From Halostagnicola kamekurae (GTDB taxonomy: Archaea > Halobacteriota > Halobacteria > Halobacteriales > Natrialbaceae), in the NCBI RefSeq assembly GCF_900116205.1, contig NZ_FOZS01000001.1, positions 496,001-560,000 of the forward strand: a stretch of 64,000 bases of DNA, read 5' to 3'. Positions 3,834 to 40,105 of the stretch are shown in pieces. The notes beneath the pieces were generated by a model that was not told the origin of the DNA, ran no database searches, and saw only the letters and a list, made by a program, of their open reading frames with translations. Made by a program: the position numbers and the translations under genes. Position 1 is the stretch's first letter. Each line of letters starts with the position of its first letter.

Positions 3834-3934
3834 AGGTCGGTGTTTCGGGTGGGCCCCGTAATCGTTTCCGTTCCGACGGGGCCCGTCCCGCGCTGGGGCC
3901 GCGAGTGTAACCGAATCGCGCGGGCGCAAGCGGC

Positions 3935-29903: not shown

Positions 29904-29975
29904 GGGCTCGTAGATCAGTGGTAGATCGCTTCCTTCGCAAGGAAGAGGCCCTGGGTTCAAATCCCAGCGAGTCCA
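29904..29975 (+). tRNA. tRNA-Ala (anticodon CGC)
   Basis: 72-base cloverleaf: acceptor GGGCTCG (29904-29910) pairs with CGAGTCC (29968-29974) with discriminator A at 29975; anticodon stem CTTCC/GGAAG closes the 7-base loop TTCGCAA, giving CGC; T arm CTGGG-TTCAAAT-CCCAG. No intron and no encoded CCA. The last 15 bases are duplicated at 39011-39025, so the 3' end is the attachment site of the adjacent element. Confidence 0.95.
29961..29975 (+). repeat. attL core (tRNA-Ala 3' end)
   Basis: ATCCCAGCGAGTCCA, the 3' end of the tRNA-Ala gene, repeated exactly at 39011-39025. Adjacent bases (TTCAA) also match with a one-base gap. It marks the left end of the integrated element. Confidence 0.85.
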
Positions 29976-30143
29976 TCGGATTGTTGTCACGTTTCGAATT
30001 GTTCCGATAGTCGCTACCTTAGCGGCTAAGTCAGAATTATGCACTTGCCCTTCGAGTGTAGAAACCCCCCTTCAGAATCGAGTGATTGACGGGACGGGAT
30101 TCACCCCCGCGCCGTTTGGCGATTTCACCGAAGGAAATTCGGG

Positions 30144-30443
30144 GTGTTCGGCGTGACGGTCGCACCATGGCCGTCTGTTAACGAATCGACCTGTCAGAAT
30201 TGCGGATCACACGTGACGGATCGGTTCGGCCGGGTGTTCGGCGACGAGAACGACCGAGCCCATCGCTGTGGAAACTGCGATTCTTACCGACGACTGAGCC
30301 GGGGGTCCGCCGCCGGTCTCGAGGTTCGGGTTCCCGATTGCGAAAACGGAGGTCGATTCGAGGTGATGACGATCACAATATTTGGACCGACGGCGGCACA
30401 TCCTCGAACGTTACCGATCATTTGGCGGCTCGGCATCATCTGA
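30144..30443 (+). CDS. Small zinc-finger protein (C-x2-C pair)
   Basis: 99 residues with GTG start; a second GTG at 30153 is possible. STCQNCGSHVTDRFGRVFGD followed by HRCGNCDSYRRLSRG is the paired C-x2-C pattern of small haloarchaeal zinc-finger proteins common in genomes and mobile elements. Family members usually end soon after the second pair; here another 45 residues follow, which may be a read-on tail from decay of the original stop. First gene inside the left end. Confidence 0.5.
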   Translation: MFGVTVAPWPSVNESTCQNCGSHVTDRFGRVFGDENDRAHRCGNCDSYRRLSRGSAAGLEVRVPDCENGGRFEVMTITIFGPTAAHPRTLPIIWRLGII

Positions 30444-30647
30444 GAGAAAGATGCTGTCTTGGTCTGGATCGAAGTAGACTTCCAGCGCCCGTAGAGCGCC
30501 TGCGTAGGCGGAAACCATTACAAATATGAAACCAATTAAGATTAAAAGGGCAACTCCGAATATCCTTCTAATTTAGAAACTCCTCTCAATTAACAAATAA
30601 ATTTCGGTACATTCGTACAGCTACTGGTCGATTTAGGGGTGATCGGG

Positions 30648-30785
30648 ATGTCTGAGCAAGCCTCGCTATTCGACTTCGAGCGCGACGACCTCACCAACGA
30701 GCAGCGCCAGGAGATCGCCGAGACACTCAGCACTCGAGTCGTCAGCTTCGAAGCCGAGCAATCGGTGACCATCGATCGAGATTAG
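30648..30785 (+). CDS. Small acidic hypothetical protein, 45 aa
   Basis: Short ORF beginning MSEQASLFDFERDDLTNEQR. Composition is acidic and haloarchaeal and its start follows an AT-rich segment (30480-30640) that otherwise holds no gene. It may be an N-terminal remnant of a longer element protein. Confidence 0.45.
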   Translation: MSEQASLFDFERDDLTNEQRQEIAETLSTRVVSFEAEQSVTIDRD

Positions 30786-30857
30786 TAGTGTTGGTAATAC
30801 GATTTCTTTATCTATGGATGGCCGTGAAAATCACGGTAAGTATAGAATCTGTTTCGA

Positions 30858-31226
30858 TCACTCGTAGGAATGGCCGTCGCTAATTGGCGGTGCCCCCATA
30901 CCGATTACGACGACTGGATCCTCACTTTCGGCTGGGTTAAAGGCGCGATGTGCGCTCTCAGGCTCTGCGATGAAGAATTGTCCCTGTTTGGCGGCGTACT
31001 CTTTGTCAGGAGTTTCTACGTGCAGTCGGCCGCTGACGACATAGAACGCTTCCTCTTGGCGGTCGTGGTAGTGGAGGCCGCTCAATGGGATCTCCTCGTC
31101 CGGTTGTACACGATACAGTCTTAGTCCCATCTCGTTCATACCTGCGGCCTCACTGACGTAGTGCATCTCTGACGGTCTATCCGGAACAGGGTCTAAGTCG
31201 TCTGGATCAATTACATGGTATCCCAT
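30858..31226 (-). CDS. Cupin-domain protein
   Basis: About 122 residues. A single cupin barrel: LSGLHYHDRQEEAFYVVSGRLHVE carries motif 1 (G-x5-H-x-H-x4-E-x6-G, partly matched) and QGQFFIAEPESAHRAFNP carries motif 2 with its His. The metal ligands are present, so it could be a metal-dependent enzyme or sugar-binding protein. The ATG at 31226 (MGYHVIDPDDLD) is chosen; an ATG at 31286 adds 20 residues. It looks like cargo rather than a structural virus gene. Confidence 0.75.
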   Translation of the reverse strand: MGYHVIDPDDLDPVPDRPSEMHYVSEAAGMNEMGLRLYRVQPDEEIPLSGLHYHDRQEEAFYVVSGRLHVETPDKEYAAKQGQFFIAEPESAHRAFNPAESEDPVVVIGMGAPPISDGHSYE

Positions 31227-31358
31227 GTGTCCCACTATGTAGGTGTTGTTAAATAATTCAATGAGATTATACTGTTCAGTACGCACACGTAGTTACCGAA
31301 TCGCACTTTTCAGTTACACACTCCAAACTGGATGAAAAAACCGCGCTACTATCTACTG

Positions 31359-31754
31359 TCAGAACACGTCTTCGATCGAGATTTTTGTCTGCTTGGTGTC
31401 GCGGTGATCGCCGCCGCCGTGCCAGCGCAACGTGGGAAGCCTGGATGCAGAAATCGACGTCGTTTTCAGAATCTACGTTCCCCGGCCGCGCTTTCGATAG
31501 ACAGCGAAGCCGTACCTCCCGCCGTTCCGCTGTAACTTGCCGTGATATCGCTTGTAGACCTTAAAATTCCCCGACTGCCCGTCAGCGTGTTTGTATTTCG
31601 TGGCCTTGAACTCCCACGGGACGCCGTTCTTGAGACCGTCGTACCAGCTCGTATCGATCCGATTGCCGTTCTCGTCGACGAGATCGACGCGATACTTTTC
31701 CGCCAGGTAGTATTCGCACGCGGTTCCGTACTTGTTGGCCTTGTGCGACGGCAT
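31359..31754 (-). pseudogene. PD-(D/E)XK-like nuclease gene interrupted by an in-frame amber codon
   Basis: The gene starts MPSHKANKYGTACEYYLAEK at 31754 and includes GVPWEFKATKYK, a possible E-x-K active site, and NGGRYGFAVYRKRGRGT. A TAG at 31473-31475 then stops it, but the same frame continues past the TAG for 37 more codons with coding character, including LPTLRWHGGGDHRDTKQTK, to a TGA at 31359-31361. One C-to-T change (CAG to TAG) would explain this. If not repaired by readthrough, the product loses its C-terminal third. Function is inferred as a nuclease or recombination protein and is tentative. Confidence 0.7.
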
Positions 31755-31992
31755 TTCAAGCGATCCCCACAACGCGCGCGCCGCGATTTTTTCGAAATCG
31801 CCTCCCAAAAACTTACATTTTTTGGGTATTCGTACGCGCCTTGAGCGCCGAGATATATAAACCCCGCTGGCACAGAGCCGCTACGCCCACGGTCCGCTTC
31901 GCTCCCGACAGGGAGCAAGCGCGGTGGGCTTTGGGCTTGACAGTCACTAAAGGGGGGTCGGTTGCGCTTTACAGCTTCACAACCCGACGCTC

Positions 31993-33229
31993 TCATGCGA
32001 TCACCTGTTCTACGGTGTCAACCCATTCGCGCTTCTCGCCACCCTCATCGATCTCTTTCCACCAGTTTGAGACGGTAGCGTGACTATACGGCACGAATTC
32101 GGCGGTTTCGCGGGCCGACATTCCCTGTTCCCGACATGCTTCCATCGTCCATGCAGCGACCGTTTTCACGTCCTCCTCGGCGATTGCAGGACCATCTTTC
32201 TCGTCACCGGACGGTGCCCGCCAGGACCAGTCGGCTTCGTCGTTCGTGTGCGGTTCGAAATCCGCCGGAGGAATCCCTTTCAGTGGTCGCGGATCGACAT
32301 CACGAAGCTTTCCGCCGGAAATCCGCTCTGCGACGAGTGCTTTCCCCTTGTCGTTCCGATCGGGCTTTTTCAGGATCGTACCGGCGCCAGAGCAGTGGAT
32401 GAATCGAACTCTCGTCATGGCCGATGTAGATGAGTGCGCCGTTGTACTTGCGGATCTTGAACACCAGCGGTCCCATCAGCTTACGGACTAACTGCCCGTC
32501 CTCGCCGGTCCCGCTCGCGTTCGTCGAGAATTCGTCGCCGATGAACAGCTTCGGCTGTTGTGGGTTTTCAACTGGGTTTCCGTCCTGACCAACCCACTCC
32601 TCGAGCAGCGGGTAGTGCGGAATCCAGCCGTCCTCGAGGTCGCCGTTGTCGCGCACCCAGTCGTCATTTCGCGGGAGCGTGCGAATGTTCGATGCGATTT
32701 TCATGTTGCCGTCGACCCACCGATCACGCAGCTGCGCCAGGAGGCAAGCGAGGTTCGTTTTCCCAGCTCCCATTTCGCCGAGCAGCACGATCACCGGGGC
32801 CGGGCCGGCCACGATCTCCTGTAGCCTGGTAATCGCTTTGATCCCCGAGAGGTCCGCCTCTTGCGCCGGGTCGCCGAGGTAGTGTTTCAGCGTGAGCGTA
32901 TCGCCGTTCTCGAGCGCGGTCCGGGACGTGTCGCTCCCTTCACCTTTCAGGATCTGCCGGTTCTTCCCCACGTCCATGTACGTCGCCGCCGCTTTCGAAT
33001 CCCAGCGGTCGGGATCGTGATGGAGCGCGCGCATGGTCATCTGGCGGTCGATTTGCTCATCACGGACGAATCCGGTGTGCGGTAGCGCCTCGTCCGGGTC
33101 ACGCGCCAGTTTGCCGTCCTGCCACTCCCGAAAGCCGCCGACCGTGTAGTTGTCCTGTTCGTTCGTCCCGCCGTCGGTCATGAGACGCTTCCCGTTCTTC
33201 CGATACTCGTGTCTATCCATGTCGTTCAC
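31993..33229 (-). pseudogene. P-loop ATPase with C-terminal HTH, split by a frameshift (VP8-like)
   Basis: Reading leftward, the first frame (33229 to 32300) has Walker A LLGEMGAGKTN, Walker B KLFIGDEFSTN and IYIGHDESSIHPLLWR, then degenerates into Arg-rich sequence. A second frame (32418 to 31993) carries on at about 32385 with GTILKKPDRNDKGKALVAER and ends in a helix-turn-helix (SARETAEFVPYSHATVSNWW). Joined, they give one protein of about 410 residues. Loss of a GC dinucleotide in CCGGCGCC near 32381-32388 would cause this. The ATPase position resembles VP8 of pleolipoviruses, a putative packaging or assembly NTPase. Programmed frameshifting is less likely. Confidence 0.7.
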
Positions 33230-34025
33230 CTCCGTCTGTCGCCGCCTGTGCAGCCTGCTCTTGGGTCGCAGGCGGGCCGCCAGTTGTGTCGATACCGTGC
33301 CCGTCGGCGTACTCCTCGACGTAGCGAGACACGTCTTGGATGTTCTCTGTCGCGTTGTTCTCCGCGTCCTCTCTCGCAGATTCGAATCGGGACTTCACCG
33401 CCGTTCGTGGGTTCATCAATCCGCGCTCGTCGGCCTCGACTTCCTCGTTCACCACGTCCTTCTGGATCTGCAGTCCCATCTTGCTGATTCGGCCGCGCAT
33501 TCGGTTCGACGCCAGGAACTCTTCAACGAGATCGCCGTGGATGTCCTCGAGCATCGCTTTGATCGTGATGAGTTTCGAATCCGATAGCTGCGAGAAATAG
33601 CAGCCTCGAACCACTAACTGACCGATATCCGTCTGATGTTCGAATTCGCGTACTTCGAACGCCGCGCCGTCGTTCACCGTGAACGGACTCGGACCATCAA
33701 CCTGTTTTTCCTGCCAGACCGACGGCTCGACGTAGTATTTCTCTCTAACATCGGTCACGCCGTTGATGTGGTGGACTGTGACCATCCGTTTCTGCCGAAG
33801 CTTCCGAACGCCGGTCACGAAAATGCCGAACAGCGGCGGGCCGAACAACAGGAGTGCGGCCAGAATCCCCTGCGTGACCGGCGGAACGCTCGGTAACGAC
33901 GGTTGCCAGAGCCACAAGCCCATGCCCAAGGAGAAGAACACTCCTAACGCCAGAATCTGCCCCTCGGCGAGTAGGTACGTGAGTCGGCCGCCCCATCCGT
34001 CGTAGGTGTCGCTCGTGTCGCTCAT
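33213..34025 (-). CDS. Membrane protein with two N-terminal helices (virus block)
   Basis: 270 residues: two transmembrane helices near residues 25-45 and 52-73, a basic stop-transfer VRKLRQKRM, then a long soluble acidic domain (about residues 75-270) ending in a Gln/Ala/Gly-rich tail. The start overlaps the previous gene's stop by 4 bases and its 3' end overlaps the ATPase start by 17 bases, so the genes are tightly co-translated. Equivalent position and topology to the ORF7-type protein of pleolipoviruses; I recognise no enzymatic motif. Confidence 0.75.
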   Translation of the reverse strand: MSDTSDTYDGWGGRLTYLLAEGQILALGVFFSLGMGLWLWQPSLPSVPPVTQGILAALLLFGPPLFGIFVTGVRKLRQKRMVTVHHINGVTDVREKYYVEPSVWQEKQVDGPSPFTVNDGAAFEVREFEHQTDIGQLVVRGCYFSQLSDSKLITIKAMLEDIHGDLVEEFLASNRMRGRISKMGLQIQKDVVNEEVEADERGLMNPRTAVKSRFESAREDAENNATENIQDVSRYVEEYADGHGIDTTGGPPATQEQAAQAATDGGERHG

Positions 34026-34627
34026 GCTTTGACCACTCCGCTATCCTCTCTGTAGACGACGTACGCCGCTGCAGCGCCCGCCAGTCCGGTCGTCATCCCA
34101 ATCCCCCAGAACAACCCAGATATCCCACCGAAGTACTGTAGCGGGTCGTCTGGCTCCTCCTCTTCCATCTTGCTCGAGAGTCGGACCGACGCGCCGTCGA
34201 TGTTGACCGTCACTGAGTGCGCTCCTCTGAACGTCTCCACGGGCATCGTGACGACGTGCGTGCCCGACTCGAGCGATGTTTGGGAGGTCGGGGGCCGAAC
34301 CGCACCTTCCTCGCCGAAGCCGGCCACGGAGTCCACAACGACCACATCAACCGGCCGCTCGGTCGTGATCGCTATCTGCATCGTTCCATCCTCGAAGCCC
34401 CAGCCGATGAGTTCCGTCCACTCGCCGAATTGGATCGTCCGGTTCTGTTCCTGCACGATCGCCGCGCTCTCGATCGCGGCCGATTCGTTCGCGATCGCGG
34501 CGGCCGTCCCCGTCGCGCCGATCCCGCGCAGAACGTTGCGCTGACTCGCTCGCGTTTCCAGCATTTCGTTCAGTGCTCGCTTCTCGATACTCTCCGTTTC
34601 CGTGGGCTGTGGGCTCTCTATTGACAT
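34022..34627 (-). CDS. C-terminally anchored membrane protein (virus block)
   Basis: 201 residues. A charged N-terminal region (TETESIEKRALNEMLETR), an Ala-rich stretch, a beta-rich central domain (TIQFGEWTELIGWGFEDGTM), and one or two C-terminal helices (GGISGLFWGIGMTTGLAGAA) with a short positive tail. It is far shorter than a pleolipovirus spike (about 500 residues), so it is better compared with the ORF6-type protein of that block. Function unknown. Confidence 0.7.
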   Translation of the reverse strand: MSIESPQPTETESIEKRALNEMLETRASQRNVLRGIGATGTAAAIANESAAIESAAIVQEQNRTIQFGEWTELIGWGFEDGTMQIAITTERPVDVVVVDSVAGFGEEGAVRPPTSQTSLESGTHVVTMPVETFRGAHSVTVNIDGASVRLSSKMEEEEPDDPLQYFGGISGLFWGIGMTTGLAGAAAAYVVYREDSGVVKA

Positions 34628-34712
34628 ATCTGCATTCTCCCCCCGACCGCGTGCGTTCGTGGACTGTGCGACTCGTCGGTTTGTTTGTCCGAAAATGTCG
34701 AATTCATGTGTC

Positions 34713-35153
34713 TCAGAACCTATATCGGTAAGCCAGAAGGTAGAATCCCGCGCCGTTCAGCATCACGATGAAGAAACCGAGCCACCAATATGACTCAATC
34801 GCGCTCGAAATCGCCGGCACGAGCGCTGAGAGGATTAGGATGGCCGCCATCGCCGCGACAACAGCCGTTTCCTCGTCGCTGAAGTCGTCGAACTGGTTCT
34901 CGTTCGTCGACCACGCCGTCACCACCACGATCAGCGAAATCACGAACGCCCAGGTGAACTCGGTGCCCTGCGCCGAGTAGATCGCGTCGGACATCGCCCA
35001 CGCGATCGGTGCATCAATCGAGACCGTTCCGAGGCCGCTCAACACGAGTGTTGCAGCAACGAAAACGGGCGCGAGAATCGAGTCTATGAGGTCTATACCG
35101 TGTTTCGATCGAATGTTTGTCGGCATTACACCGGACAGGCCTGAAGTTGCCAT
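34713..35153 (-). CDS. Four-helix small membrane protein (VP3-like)
   Basis: 146 residues with four predicted transmembrane helices: [51 protein letters not shown] and [19 protein letters not shown]. It is the first gene of the leftward block, as VP3, the internal membrane protein, is in pleolipoviruses. Only 86 bases separate it from the next gene, where a spike gene would be expected. Homology is inferred from size, topology and order, not from residue identity. Confidence 0.7.
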
Positions 35154-35227
35154 ACCTCGAAGCCGTCAGCATGGGGGGTCGAAAAGCTACGGAAAACCAA
35201 GGGTTCCCCCAGAGTGTCACCCCCAGT

Positions 35228-35252
35228 TTCCCCTACCTTTATACTAGGGGAA
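35228..35252. promoter_or_regulatory. 8-bp inverted repeat spanning a TATA box
   Basis: TTCCCCTA-CCTTTATAC-TAGGGGAA, a perfect inverted repeat with the TATA-like TTTATAC in its centre. The ATG of the AbrB-like gene (35268) lies about 28 bases from the TATA, so its transcript is leaderless and a repressor bound here would block TBP/TFB. The leftward viral block starts 75 bases away at 35153, so the site could control both directions. Confidence 0.6.
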
Positions 35253-35267
35253 GTTGCGAGCGACGGT

Positions 35268-35450
35268 ATGGCATTGAACAAACTCAGAGAATTAGACGAC
35301 TATTCCTACGGCGTGACCGTGCCAAAAGACGACCTTCGAATTGATGGCATCCTCGACGAAAATAGCAATCTCAAGGATGACCATCACTTTCACGTTCAGC
35401 GTACAGGGGAAGGAAAATGGTCGGTAGAATTGGTAGATGATCTTGGATAA
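35268..35450 (+). CDS. Small AbrB-like protein, 60 aa
   Basis: 60 residues: LRELDDYSYGVTVPKDDLRI resembles the swapped-hairpin AbrB/SpoVT strand, followed by DDHHFHVQRTGEGKWSVEL. Related small proteins are common in haloarchaeal genomes and elements and are thought to bind DNA or act as antitoxin-like partners; no toxin gene is next to it. The start is set by the leaderless promoter inside the inverted repeat at 35228-35252, which makes autoregulation plausible. Confidence 0.7.
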   Translation: MALNKLRELDDYSYGVTVPKDDLRIDGILDENSNLKDDHHFHVQRTGEGKWSVELVDDLG

Positions 35451-35524
35451 CGATCTATTTTAGATACGTCTTTCAAGAAACCGGGGTCACGAAAAATGGA
35501 ACTGTTCCGCGATTCGCTACCGAT

Positions 35525-36760
35525 TTAGAGACTGATCGCGTCGGACGTCAGCGTCGACGGTGCCATCAGCACTTCGGTCGTCTGAGCGTTATCTGCGGTC
35601 ACGATCGAGAACTCTGCGGAGCCACCTGCTGGGATCGGCGTGAAGTCCTCGTTGTTGCCACCGTTCAATTCGAGTTCGATCTGGTAGCGATCGTCCGAGG
35701 TGAGCACGGCGTCGTCGAGTTCGCCCTCAGCGAGACTGTCGCCTTCGAGGTTCTCGATGTCGAGATGCTCGAGGTTGGCAGCCTGGCCGCGCTGCGTCTC
35801 TTCACCGACGTACTCGAACGTCGCTGCCTCGAGGTCGACGGCGTCTGCACCGGGACCGAGCGAGACCATCAGCGAAGCGCTCTCGATGTAGTCACCAGTT
35901 CCGGTGTCAGTGTTGTAGTCTGCACCGTGAACGAGGTCGATGCCACCCTCGCTGTCTTCGACGACATTAATTCCGTTCTGGATGGCACGGGCATCGAGTT
36001 CGATAGTTGCAGTTTCCGTGCTTTCGAAGTCATCCGATTCAACATCCACGGACACTTCGTTATTGCCGGATGATAGGTCATTTCCGGAGAAATCAGCATC
36101 CAGATGAGGCGTACCACTGGCAATGTCATTCGTATCCCAGTTCACGTCAACATCAGTCAGTGATCCAATGTCGTCGTAGAACGTTACTGTGGTGTCAGAA
36201 TTCACGTTGAAATTCAATGGACTAGAGATGGAAAGTGACGAATCAGAGCCAGAATTGAACGTGTATTCATCTTGAATCTCAAGAACACCATCCGCATTCA
36301 CGTAGCTTTCGTGAACGTTAAGAGTATCAGATGGAGAATCTTGAGCGTCATCAACAACGACTTCTAATTGGTCAACATCAGAGAGATCTGTTTCCGTTAA
36401 TTCGCCCTCAAGGGTCGAAATATCACCCGCACTTGCCAGTTCATTGCCGTCAGCAAGTACTGTGATAGTGTTTGCATCTCCCCAATTTGCAGCTCCTTCC
36501 TGGCCAAATGTGATGTCAACACTTGTGAGGACTTCACCGTTGCCACCTACTTGACCCGTCGCGGACTCAATCTCAACGACGTTCGAAACCTGTGCTGTAC
36601 TTTCTTGACCCGTTGCCTCTGCCTGGGACTGCAGAAGACCGGCGGTGTTGATCAGTACACCTGCCGCAATCGCTGCGACAAGCACCATCGCGATGAACAC
36701 GATGAGCGTACCGATACCCACCTGACCGCGCTCTTCTTCGTCTGTAATTCGTTCAAACAT
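35525..36760 (-). CDS. Archaellin (archaeal flagellin) carried by the element
   Basis: 411 residues. [20 protein letters not shown] then [20 protein letters not shown] is an archaellin-type prepilin signal: cleavage by the FlaK/PibD peptidase is expected just before GQVGIGTL, leaving the hydrophobic assembly helix. [19 protein letters not shown] and the C-terminal domain ([17 protein letters not shown]) also match haloarchaeal archaellins. The central region (about residues 70-250, bases 36000-36550) is visibly more AT-rich than the ends and full of Asp/Ser/Thr, the exposed filament part. No arl/fla motor genes are in the window; the host's chromosomal machinery would be needed to assemble it. 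Confidence 0.88.
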
Positions 36761-36785
36761 GTGTGATTACACGCCGAGCACCCAC

Positions 36786-36902
36786 CAGAAACGAAGTTTC
36801 TGTGATATGCCGGACGTGTTTCGGCTTTCCGAGTATTATCTAATAAATATTCTTGCCGATTGATGGGTGGGCATAAGTGTATTGGCCGAACCTATTTCGG
36901 CC
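36786..36902. promoter_or_regulatory. Archaellin upstream region with two perfect hairpins
   Basis: Within the 297-base gap 36761-37057. CAGAAAC-GAA-GTTTCTG (36786-36802) lies 26-42 bases before the archaellin ATG, probably in its 5' leader. GGCCGAA-CCTAT-TTCGGCC (36884-36902) lies further upstream. Between them, TTTATTAGATAATA (reading leftward, about 36838-36851) is a fair TATA element. The rest of the gap shows nothing. Confidence 0.5.
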
Positions 36903-37057
36903 ACAAGACTAATTTGTGGAAGCAGAGAAAAAGTACGTGAAGGCCTCATTCGTCAGTGATCCTTCGAACACATTGTGTCTGGCTGGAAATCCACCCAGTC
37001 CAGTACCACCCACCTAAACTCTTGACACGCAGCAATTGCTATCAAATTGGGTAGAGG

Positions 37058-37333
37058 TTACTTTTCTTCGAGATCGTCCGCATCTAACTCTCCCTCGAGA
37101 TACGCACGACCGCAATCAGTGATCTGATAAAGACCGCGATCCTTGTCATAATATTCTACAAGATCCGATTGCTCTAACGCCCTTAGACGCCGTCTCACGT
37201 GAGATATCTTGTAATCGAGATTCGCCTCTACAGTGGATGGATTAGCAATAATTGAGCGATTCCCCTCGTTCAGCAAAAACTCGAGAATCGCATCGTCTGC
37301 TCTCGTCATCCAATCCACCCGTGGTCGTCGCAT
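37058..37333 (-). CDS. Winged-helix regulator (phage PhiH1 repressor-like)
   Basis: 91 residues, one winged helix: DDAILEFLLNEGN, STVEANLDYKISHVRRRLRA as the recognition part, then YYDKDRGLYQITDCGRAYLEG as the wing. This is the layout of haloarchaeal PhiH1-like repressor proteins. Starting Met could be residue 1 (37333) or residue 9 (MTRADD). A weak inverted repeat TGAGT-N7-ACTCA overlies the start (37335-37350). It lies between the archaellin and integrase modules and might keep the element silent or control the archaellin gene. Confidence 0.8.
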   Translation of the reverse strand: MRRPRVDWMTRADDAILEFLLNEGNRSIIANPSTVEANLDYKISHVRRRLRALEQSDLVEYYDKDRGLYQITDCGRAYLEGELDADDLEEK

Positions 37334-37493
37334 TGAGTCGGAATCACTCAGAACACCATGTTAGAACACTCGGTTCGATGGTATTAGTTCCTTGTTTGGC
37401 TCCTTGTAGAGCGGTGTTTGATGCACTAGTTCTAAGTACCCCCCGTTCATTGGGACCGGATAACGGAAGTCAGACGGACCCGCCGCTGCTCGG

Positions 37494-37605
37494 CCGGGTC
37501 CTCGAGAAAACGCGGACCCGGTGTTTGGGCACCGGCCCGCCTGGCCTCCGTAACCAACCTACGGAAGCATGCAATCGCACAACGCAACGGGGGATAAACC
37601 CCCCG
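37494..37605. repeat. Two perfect hairpins before the recombination module
   Basis: CCGGGTCC-N12-GGACCCGG (37494-37521) and CGGGGG-ATAAAC-CCCCCG (37588-37605), in the 373-base stretch 37334-37706 that otherwise holds no gene I can support. They could be recombinase accessory sites, a terminator pair or an origin structure. Confidence 0.6.
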
Positions 37606-37706
37606 AAAGACCGACGTATCGGATTCAACGAGACTTTGGAATAGTTTCACTTCCAGCCCGCGCTTTTGGCTCCCCGTTTTTATACCCCGGCGAGACGCCC
37701 GAGGTG

Positions 37707-37958
37707 ATGCCTGCCAGCAAAGAAGAGATTCGACTGTCGAACCGGACTGACCGCTGGCGGTTCATGTGCCCGAACGGTCATCGTTCCTGGGAGCCCACGA
37801 ATAACCATTTCTGGTGTCAGCAGTGTGCGCGCTCATACGATGAGGACGTTGAACCGGAGTTCGACGCGCTTCACGATCTGAAGACCGGGGAAGAAATCCA
37901 TCGCGACGAGCTGGTGTTGCGCCAGGGCAACACGCTCGAAGTTCGGGGGAAAGCGTGA
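37707..37958 (+). CDS. Small zinc-binding protein of the recombination module
   Basis: 83 residues: MPASKEEIRLSNRTDRWRF, then MCPNGHRSW and HFWCQQCARS, giving a Cys/His plus C-x2-C zinc site, and an acidic C-terminus. Its stop overlaps the integrase start by 4 bases, so the two are co-translated. In the SNJ2-type system small proteins co-transcribed with the integrase affect excision; a similar role here is inference. The ATG at 37707 is preferred over 37569, which adds uncharacteristic residues across the hairpins. Confidence 0.7.
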   Translation: MPASKEEIRLSNRTDRWRFMCPNGHRSWEPTNNHFWCQQCARSYDEDVEPEFDALHDLKTGEEIHRDELVLRQGNTLEVRGKA

Positions 37959-38968
37959 GCGAGGACCTGCAACCACTTCCCCCGAAAGAGGGTGTCGATC
38001 GGTTCCTCGAGCACCGCGCCCCGAGTATCCGTGAGTCCTCGATGCAGAACGCACGGCACCGTCTGTCGGTGTTCCTCGAGTGGTGTGGTGAGAACGATGT
38101 TGACGACTTGAACGACCTTACTGGCCGTGATCTGTTGGCGTTCGTGGCCTGGCGTCAGGGTGACGTTGCGGCGATCACGTTGCAAAAGCAATTGAGTAGC
38201 GTTCGGATGGCTCTCCGTTGGTGGGCCGATATAGAGGGTGTCGAGGAAGGTCTCGCTGAAAAATTGCACTCACCGGATCTACCGGACGGAGCCGAGTCGA
38301 AGGATGTGTTCCTCGAGGCCGATCGCGCGAAGCGAGCGCTCCGATACTACGATCGCCACCACTACGCGAGCCGGGATCACGCACTGATCGCTTTGATCTG
38401 GCGGACGGGAATGCGACGGGGTGCGGTACGTGGGCTCGATGTTGACGATCTCGATAGTGACGATCAGGCGATTCGAGTCGAGCACCGCCCCCATACGGGA
38501 ACACCGCTCAAAAACGGCGATGGCGGAAACCGCTGGGTCTACCTTGGACCACGTTGGTTCACGATTCTCGATGATTTCGTGGCGAACCCCGATCGGAAAA
38601 ACGTTCGCGACGAGCACGGTCGCCGACCGCTGTTCACGACTCGGCAGGACACCCGCCCTACCGGCCACTCAATCTACAAGTGGGTGATCCGGGCGTTACA
38701 TCCCTGTAAGTACGCGGAATGCCCTCACGATCGAAAGCCGAGCGATTGCGAGGCACTGGATAGCAGTTCGGTTCCATCCAAGTGTCCGTCAGCACGATCG
38801 CCGCATTCGATTCGACGTGGAGCGATCACGAATCACCTGAACGAGGAAACGGCACCAGAGACAGTGAGCGAGCGGATGGATGTCTCGCTCGATGTGCTCT
38901 ACCAGCACTACGACGCGAGAACAGAACGCGAGAAGATGGCGGTCCGTCGTCAGAATTTACCAGAATAA
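37955..38968 (+). CDS. Tyrosine recombinase/integrase
   Basis: 337 residues. A core-binding SAM-like domain (about residues 10-110, HRLSVFLEWCGENDVDDL) is followed by the catalytic domain: Arg in GMRRGAVRGL (around residue 154), H-x-x-R in SPHSIRRGA (His284, Arg287) and the nucleophile in YQHYDARTE (Tyr319 most likely). A Cys/His-containing insertion (HPCKYAECPHDRKPSDCE) lies before the H-x-x-R box, as in many haloarchaeal element integrases. It lies 43 bases from the right att copy. All catalytic residues appear intact, so it could still act. Confidence 0.9.
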   Translation: MSEDLQPLPPKEGVDRFLEHRAPSIRESSMQNARHRLSVFLEWCGENDVDDLNDLTGRDLLAFVAWRQGDVAAITLQKQLSSVRMALRWWADIEGVEEGLAEKLHSPDLPDGAESKDVFLEADRAKRALRYYDRHHYASRDHALIALIWRTGMRRGAVRGLDVDDLDSDDQAIRVEHRPHTGTPLKNGDGGNRWVYLGPRWFTILDDFVANPDRKNVRDEHGRRPLFTTRQDTRPTGHSIYKWVIRALHPCKYAECPHDRKPSDCEALDSSSVPSKCPSARSPHSIRRGAITNHLNEETAPETVSERMDVSLDVLYQHYDARTEREKMAVRRQNLPE

Positions 38969-39010
38969 AACCATGATTTGCAAAACCACGTGACTCAGCG
39001 GGATTTCAAC

Positions 39011-39025
39011 ATCCCAGCGAGTCCA
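39011..39025 (+). repeat. attR core
   Basis: ATCCCAGCGAGTCCA, identical to the tRNA-Ala 3' end at 29961-29975; the bases before it (TTTCAAC) resemble the T loop. It bounds the provirus on the right. Confidence 0.85.
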
Positions 39026-39075: not shown

Positions 39076-39209
39076 ACTGGGATTTGAACCCCTACCAGTC
39101 GCAGCCCGTGAGCGTAGCGAACTGGAACGTCTGGTTTTGGGTTCAAATCCCGGCCTCTGTCGAGTAACAAGAGGGAAGGCTCGAAAGACTTCACATCCCA
39201 GCCAGTCAA
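39076..39209. repeat. tRNA-like and att-like scars right of the provirus
   Basis: Three fragments in the otherwise geneless 38969-39401: CTGGGATTTGAACCCCTAC (39077-39095; a T arm on the minus strand), GGGTTCAAATCCC (39139-39151; a T arm on the plus strand) and ATCCCAGCCAGTCAA (39195-39209; 13 of 15 bases of the att core). None is part of a complete tRNA. They look like remnants of earlier integrations. Confidence 0.6.
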
Positions 39210-39401
39210 CTTCTGTTACTGTCAGAATTCACTAATATATAATGGCACATGGCGGTCCTTCACCTTCCTGAGTTTCATAGTGACAAGTTCATCACTACTT
39301 GGGGGCGGCAAGTCCGTTTGAAGGAATTAAAAATCTCGAAATAGTTGAGCTGGACATCGATTTGCATTGGATCAATCTAATTGATAAATTCTTATCTAAT
39401 T

Positions 39402-39956
39402 TCAGACCATTAGGCATGGTGGGAGGTCTGTTACCCAAAATGCAACTCGAATATTCCAGAATAGATGTGTCAATACTGCCAAAACAACTGCTATAGTGAG
39501 AATAATGTAATCCTGTAGTTGGCCTTCTTTTCCTGCGATTCGAAACACTCCGATCCCAATCAGTAATCCGTTAACTGTATGCATTAGGATTGGTGCCAAT
39601 TCAATAAAACTAAGAGACTGATCACCAAGTGATTTGCTGGCCCATTCAAGTGCGCCAACCGTCAAACCACCAACTAATCCGTATTGGTAGCGTTGAGAAA
39701 TCAAGTTCTCTGTCCATTCGTACCTTCTTGCCAACCAAACGATGAAAACCGCAGGAAGATATTTGGAGATGATTGGTTCTTGGATAGCCGCCAAAACGGG
39801 CTGAATACAGATTCTAAGAGCATTAAAGGATACTGATGGAAATAATATTGGGAGTAAGTATAAGAGTGTTACATTAACCGCTGTCATTCCAACTGCACCG
39901 ACTGCAAACGGCAAAGCAACTTTAGATATAACATCAAACAAATCATCAGGGTCCAT
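39402..39956 (-). CDS. AT-rich polytopic membrane protein
   Basis: About 184 residues with five or six predicted helices. Base composition is strikingly AT-rich compared with host genes. Helices contain GALEWASK, LMHTVNGLLIG and LTHLFWNIR; the Glu plus two His on separate helices faintly recall intramembrane metalloproteases (PrsW/CPBP), but the match is too weak for a name. The start MDPDDLFDVISK at 39956 is preferred to 40007. It lies in a foreign island between the att scars and host DNA. Confidence 0.65.
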   Translation of the reverse strand: MDPDDLFDVISKVALPFAVGAVGMTAVNVTLLYLLPILFPSVSFNALRICIQPVLAAIQEPIISKYLPAVFIVWLARRYEWTENLISQRYQYGLVGGLTVGALEWASKSLGDQSLSFIELAPILMHTVNGLLIGIGVFRIAGKEGQLQDYIILTIAVVLAVLTHLFWNIRVAFWVTDLPPCLMV

Positions 39957-40105
39957 CGTTTGAGTATAACTCCATAAGAGAAAACAAAAGTTAGAACTAC
40001 TTATCATTTGGTCGCTAGTTATTCCATTACGAACGTAGCGAAATCTCGTCTTCTTTTGGCTCCAATCTCTCTATTTTAACAACTTTCTCAAGCATAGCCT
40101 GACAA

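Follow-up and report, generated by a model that had tools for sequence, protein, structure and literature searches.

The window, by which we mean the whole stretch of 64,000 nucleotides of Halostagnicola kamekurae DNA that was analysed, carries an integrated element of 9.05 kb between two att repeats, and a full-length archaellin gene lies inside this element. The features are given below in the order of their coordinates, G000 being the genome to which the window belongs, G018 that of another species of the same genus and G019 a further genome of this genus.

29904..29975, plus strand: tRNA-Ala(CGC), the integration target, intact (ARAGORN)
29961..29975, plus strand: att repeat at the tRNA 3' end (exact 15-bp repeat; G019 empty site)
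30858..31286, minus strand: cupin-domain gene at the place of the Rep region in the G018 provirus, with no nucleotide match to that provirus there
31473..31808, minus strand: SNJ2 gp18 homologue (phrog_2095)
31993..33229, minus strand: NTPase (SNJ2 gp17, phrog_1979), frameshifted into ORFs 32300-33229 and 31993-32418
33213..34025, minus strand: SNJ2 gp15 homologue (phrog_3526), 60.6% identity to SNJ2 and 95-96% to G018
34022..34627, minus strand: fusion ORF joining the signal-peptide end of a lost spike to a gp14 homologue (phrog_1938; junction alignment)
34713..35153, minus strand: 4-TM membrane protein in the position of SNJ2 VP12 (phrog_3232), 88-90% identity in G018
35214..35450, plus strand: SNJ2 gp11 homologue, a 78-aa ORF between the archaellin and 4-TM genes (51% identity, tblastn)
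35525..36760, minus strand: proviral archaellin, 411 aa, with a class III signal peptide, a conserved N-terminal part of ~70 aa, a conserved C-terminal part of ~124 aa and a divergent middle (Pfam, alignments, dN/dS)
36764..36897, minus strand: archaellin promoter and leader, 87% identity to the promoter in the G018 provirus
37058..37333, minus strand: winged-helix regulator (phrog_2440; SNJ2 gp4 position), upstream of the archaellin
37569..37958, plus strand: small CxxC protein beside the integrase, 93% identity in G018, integrase-adjacent in locus L078 too, no Pfam match
37955..38968, plus strand: tyrosine integrase (PF00589, PF02899, phrog_1), 97% identity to the G018 provirus integrase
39011..39025, plus strand: distal att repeat of the element (followed by the sequence of the G019 empty site; boundary shared with G018 at L047:3934)

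The exact att repeats and the unoccupied site in G019 establish the boundaries of the element. Indeed, the window contains just two copies of the 15-bp repeat ATCCCAGCGAGTCCA (29961-29975 and 39011-39025), where 0 would be expected by chance, and in G019 the tRNA 3' end is directly joined to CTATTCTGCGCCGCG, the sequence that follows position 39025 in the window. This empty site, together with a provirus at the same tRNA in G018, led us to reject a coincidental origin of the repeats. A preliminary description of this DNA had placed a full-length archaellin, with intact prepilin site and C-terminus, inside a tRNA-targeted element at 29961-39025 and had noted the lack of archaellum motor genes alongside; both statements held, since tblastn with six host arl proteins (ArlF, ArlG, two ArlCDE-type proteins, ArlJ and ArlH) detected no motor gene in the window. 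The same description had named host arl genes beside the archaellin, or fortuitous att repeats, as evidence that would speak against its reading. We found the repeats to be real and the motor genes of the host (ArlF, ArlG, ArlCDE-type, ArlJ, ArlH) to be intact on another contig, G000:C2.

Outside the far att repeat, the stretch 39080-39211 contains tRNA T-arm-like fragments (GGGATTTGAACCC, GGGTTCAAATCCC) and, at 39193-39211, a second, imperfect att-like copy, which suggests earlier integrations at tRNA-Ala(CGC); part of this stretch is also found in the G019 empty site. A ~930-bp AT-rich segment at 39153-40097, absent from G018 and from the G019 empty site, contains an ORF for a 201-aa PrsW-like membrane protein (39402-40007, minus strand) and looks like a separate small insertion.

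The 411-aa product of the ORF at 35525-36760 scores 92.5 bits against PF01917 (Arch_flagellin; cut-off, 29.5) and possesses a class III prepilin site, RGQ|VGIGT, as well as an intact C-terminus. Judged by its Pfam match, its class III signal and its polymerising N-terminal helix, the protein is an archaellin, and solved archaellins match it. Its AlphaFold model is poor (pLDDT 50) and lends this reading no structural support.

By its gene content, the element is a decayed provirus of a betapleolipovirus of the SNJ2 group, and it is integrated site-specifically into a tRNA gene with a known empty site, as is characteristic of such a provirus. SNJ2 (OP012469) and related proviruses share with the window and G018 proviruses the block formed by the 4-TM, spike, gp14, gp15, NTPase, gp18 and integrase genes and the DUF7845 Rep (the latter in G018), a rolling-circle initiator family described for SNJ2 as the ORF19 family (PMC13107129). 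They differ between gp4 and gp11, where SNJ2 has genes for replication and other roles (HicBA, Orc1/Cdc6, gp9 and gp10) and the window and G018 proviruses have the archaellin.

The decay is most evident in the spike gene. Compared to the G018 provirus, ~2.7 kb are missing from the window, comprising nearly the whole spike gene, and the Tat-type (twin-arginine-type) N-terminus of the spike is now joined to the gp14 homologue, in agreement with the earlier statement that the element has no spike gene. The frameshift in the NTPase may in principle be a sequencing error, which the spike deletion cannot be, and judging from this deletion the window provirus cannot make a normal spike. No Rep match was found in the window element; its Rep region seems to have lost 3.9 kb and gained the cupin-domain gene at 30858-31286. 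Since the provirus has lost its spike, NTPase and Rep functions, the window archaellin may now be passing to host ownership or to decay.

An orthologous provirus in G018 occupies the same tRNA (L047; ~14.4 kb, flanked by att copies at 3934 and 18299) and is apparently complete, with a full structural block (4-TM, a 930-aa spike at L047:7920-10712, gp14, gp15 and an unbroken NTPase), an integrase and an intact DUF7845 Rep (PF25227, 352.8 bits). The backbones of the two proviruses are mostly 80-97% identical (integrase 97%, gp15 95-96%, 4-TM 88-90%, regulator 80%), with a dS of 0.2-0.5 in most genes. The corresponding slot of the G018 provirus, between the regulator and the gp11/4-TM genes, also holds an archaellin, one of 306 aa (L047:6191-7111). 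As this provirus carries the archaellin alongside a spike, we consider the archaellin to be an old cargo gene of this virus lineage, as the preliminary description had put forward when it proposed cargo of a virus-like element. Its remark that the archaellin adjoins the 4-TM gene was correct as to proximity and has to be amended in that the gp11-like ORF (35214-35450, plus strand) intervenes.

Archaellins are rare in this setting. With an archaellin HMM, we found one in 2 of 133 betapleolipovirus-type loci, namely, in the window and in G018, both from one genus and one provirus lineage; the 133 loci comprise the window and 132 fetched loci with gp15 or gp17, G018 among them, and some end at contig ends, so that 2/133 may be a slight undercount. 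Archaellins are absent from SNJ2, HHPV3 and every other betapleolipovirus-type locus examined, and the corresponding slot of other proviruses holds unrelated genes (e.g., L061, L049 and L059). The cargo there (L061:4729-6125, L049:13520-15173, L059:14048-15565) includes a 400-aa protein, the C-terminus of which resembles by eye a restriction-type nuclease fold, a TFB-like protein and a predicted lipoprotein-like secreted protein. Relatives of the archaellin were found neither in public phages nor in viral contigs, and public plasmids matched only its N-terminus (15-18% of the query). When viral contigs were scanned with gp15, no match was obtained, and an alignment scan with gp17 retrieved only HHPV3/HHPV4-like contigs, all devoid of an archaellin.

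We compared the window archaellin (E0) with the G018 proviral copy (E18) and with the archaellins of both hosts, as the preliminary description had proposed for the host copies. DNA similarity between E0 and arlA of its own host (G000:C2:105443-106678) is confined to the coding sequence, with 93% nucleotide identity over the first 70 codons (98.6% identity over the N-terminal 70 aa), 88% over the last 124 codons (94% at the protein level) and 41% amino acid identity in the middle. Likewise, E18 is closest to one of the G018 host copies, H18_2 (N-terminal part, 95% nucleotide identity; C-terminal part, 94% amino acid identity; middle, 59% amino acid identity), whereas the C-terminal parts of E0 and E18 share only 52% amino acid identity. 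Nearest-neighbor bootstraps for the host affinity of the proviral archaellins gave 1000/1000 and 995/1000. By these alignments, the coding sequence of the proviral archaellin tracks its own host and not the virus backbone.

The promoter has another affinity. Its proximal 130 nt are 90% identical in E0 and E18, and those of E0 are 91-92% identical to the promoters of two tandem G018 host archaellin genes, versus 59% to the promoter of arlA in its own host. This promoter type is found at only four places in 125 genomes of the family, i.e., in both proviruses and in front of the two G018 host arl genes. Given that the backbone (80-97%) and the promoter are common to both proviruses while the C-terminal part resembles that of the respective host (94% versus 52%), at least one exchange of coding sequence with host archaellins, in either direction, is implied by the alignments. 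A dS of 0.25-0.61 indicates that this exchange was not recent with the host alleles sampled. Most simply, these sequences would be explained if an arl gene and its promoter were captured once and a host-type allele later took the place of the coding sequence on one or more occasions. Two independent captures of different archaellins at the same slot are disfavored, since the promoter and the flank are common to both proviral genes.

A comparable pattern is seen in the arl locus itself. The G018 host cluster (L048:5794-10242) contains three tandem long archaellins with conserved ends and unrelated middles, the last two having nearly identical promoters (127/130 nt), so that a similar cassette-like diversification operates there. 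Archaellins also occur elsewhere in these genomes. G021:C5 (L086:9462-11326) has an orphan pair of the long and short types beside surface or sugar-metabolism genes, apart from the arl motor cluster that this genome has on C23 and with no integrated element evident within 10 kb, and lone archaellins are present on contig C19 of G019.

When the proviral archaellins are paired with their nearest host copies, the N-terminal 70 codons give a dN/dS of 0.00-0.02 and the C-terminal part one of 0.05-0.07, dS in these ends being 0.25-0.61; in the middle, dN reaches 0.29-0.58 and dS is high or near saturation. As measured by these ratios, the packing ends of the proviral archaellin are under strong purifying selection and the middle has diverged. 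Processing and filament packing depend on the parts that are kept, and the varying middle is expected to face outward. Such a pattern is consistent with a subunit made for the host filament, and the window copy itself may still be expressed today.

We propose, with a probability of roughly 0.6, that the proviral archaellin is a self-contained cargo, consisting of an arl-type promoter and one coding sequence, by which the lysogenic virus would remodel the archaellum filament of its host. The proposal builds on the identity and boundaries of the provirus, its orthologous counterpart in G018, the capture of the gene with its promoter, the tracking of the host and the constraint on the ends, all of which the comparisons directly support; transcription, assembly and phenotype are predicted from them. 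The common ancestor of the G000 and G018 proviruses would have captured a host arl archaellin gene with ~215-235 bp of upstream sequence into the slot between the regulator and the gp11/4-TM genes. In a lysogen, the proviral subunit would be transcribed from its own promoter, the host prepilin peptidase would cleave it, and the intact archaellum machinery of the host would assemble it; the subunit would then mix into or replace the host filament, changing its exposed surface. Possible benefits include an altered motility, stability or other filament properties, or a filament hidden from viruses or agents that recognize it. By homologous recombination with resident archaellin genes across the near-identical ends, the proviral copy could keep its packing ends matched to the current host. 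Whether a temperate betapleolipovirus thus converts the archaellum, with packing ends re-tailored to each host and an exposed domain kept different, is in our judgment an evenly balanced question. That the element would donate a filament subunit to its host, as had been suggested from the window alone, is plausible from the sequences compared and by analogy with the systems discussed below.

Other explanations have to be weighed against this proposal. The provirus could be a donor or reservoir of alleles, the archaellin converting host arlA or being converted by it, so that the exposed middle is shuffled and expression of the proviral gene is secondary. The chimeric gene, with a G018-type promoter and an own-host-type coding sequence set in the viral backbone, would fit such a role, and an N-terminal nucleotide identity of 93-95% could support recombination. 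The complete promoter is nevertheless retained, the ends are conserved as protein despite a dS of 0.25-0.61, as expected if the subunit itself is under selection, and no recently converted tract is seen; moreover, the middles of provirus and host differ, so that no completed donation of a middle domain is observed. We therefore regard this role as rather unlikely. Passive capture, in which a host archaellin acquired by chance persists through slow decay and confers no benefit, would account for the rarity of the gene (2/133 loci) and agrees with the decay of the rest of the window provirus. However, the gene is intact in both proviruses at a backbone dS of 0.2-0.5 in most genes, the dN/dS of 0.00-0.07 in its ends is far under the expectation for a neutral branch, it survives in the window where spike and NTPase are broken, and the promoter type common to both proviruses is still kept, which makes passive capture unlikely.

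Two further explanations remain to be considered. A virion component or a replacement of the spike, the latter raised in the preliminary description, could be envisaged given that the window provirus has no spike and that its archaellin lies near the 4-TM structural gene. The G018 provirus, however, carries archaellin and spike at different positions, which identifies the archaellin as virus cargo and not as a spike replacement, and what remains of the window spike, an N-terminus fused to gp14, is found at 34022-34627, on the downstream side of the 4-TM gene. We know of no prepilin-peptidase-processed subunit with a polymerising N-terminal helix in pleolipovirus virions, and we consider this explanation very improbable. 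That the gene is an ordinary chromosomal orphan with an element integrated beside it might be entertained, as archaellins away from the motor locus do exist (the G021:C5 pair), yet the gene lies inside the att repeats, the G019 empty site holds nothing between the tRNA and the flank, and the same gene order recurs in the sister provirus of G018; we take this possibility to be refuted and its probability to be negligible.

Remodeling of the filament by a lysogenic virus, the reading that we prefer, has a bacterial parallel. FRphi prophages of Enterobacteriaceae (Enterobacter) encode an alternative flagellin, FliCP, and a repressor of the host gene, TldR, and remodel the flagellum, and their authors call this the first known prophage-encoded flagellin (PMC13418256). 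Both viruses are temperate and lack motor genes, and each encodes an alternative filament subunit whose polymerising core is conserved and whose exposed domain diverges. The two cases differ in the domain of life, the virus family and the filament, the archaellum being a relative of type IV pili. They differ also in that TldR and a guide RNA repress the host subunit gene, whereas we recognized no element-encoded repressor of host archaellins and no TnpB-like ORF among the ORFs listed for the element or the ten proteins scanned with Pfam. Furthermore, FliCP is typically highly divergent from the host FliC (PMC13418256), in contrast to the proviral archaellin, the coding sequence of which tracks the host. 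As no TldR-like repressor was recognized, we would say that the archaellin provirus, whose function is deduced from sequence, works like FRphi, of which it is not a member. Phage resistance was judged unlikely to be the main benefit of FRphi (PMC13418256), and for this reason we do not commit ourselves to superinfection exclusion here.

An archaellin on a replicon of its own is known from Haloarcula marismortui, in which FlaA2, borne on plasmid pNG100, makes up most of the filament, and the chromosomal flaB is strongly repressed in the presence of pNG100 and ∼2^8-fold higher upon loss of the plasmid (PMC6528647). Like the proviral gene, this archaellin lies apart from the motor locus; its separate replicon, pNG100, is a 33-kb plasmid and not an integrated virus. 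In a 31-kb stretch of pNG100 searched with the SNJ2 and window virus proteins, we found no pleolipovirus structural gene and, besides the archaellin, a single weak match to the regulator, and we rejected pNG100 as a pleolipovirus relative. Of note, pNG100 FlaA2 (L223:20001-21392) is near an Orc1/Cdc6 gene and an integrase.

To our knowledge, no archaeal virus has been reported to carry an archaellin, and our search of the open-access literature, which was not exhaustive, found no description of one. Neither archaella nor flagella are mentioned in the text of a survey from 2023 that covered 164 new pleolipovirus genomes (PMC10599561). Virus-borne alternative filament subunits are a known kind of gene, which the sequences described here would extend to archaea. 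The archaellin provirus offers a worked case of a viral cargo gene whose sequence tracks the host and not the virus backbone, and it is directly testable since the provirus of G018 is apparently complete and the corresponding site in G019, naturally uninfected, allows a comparison. How viruses shape archaeal surface filaments is an open question (PMC7911016), on which this provirus bears. By analogy, it looks like the archaeal counterpart of bacterial viruses that re-dress the flagella of their hosts and, if expressed, would represent filament remodeling by a virus in archaea, independent of the bacterial case and on a structurally unrelated organelle.
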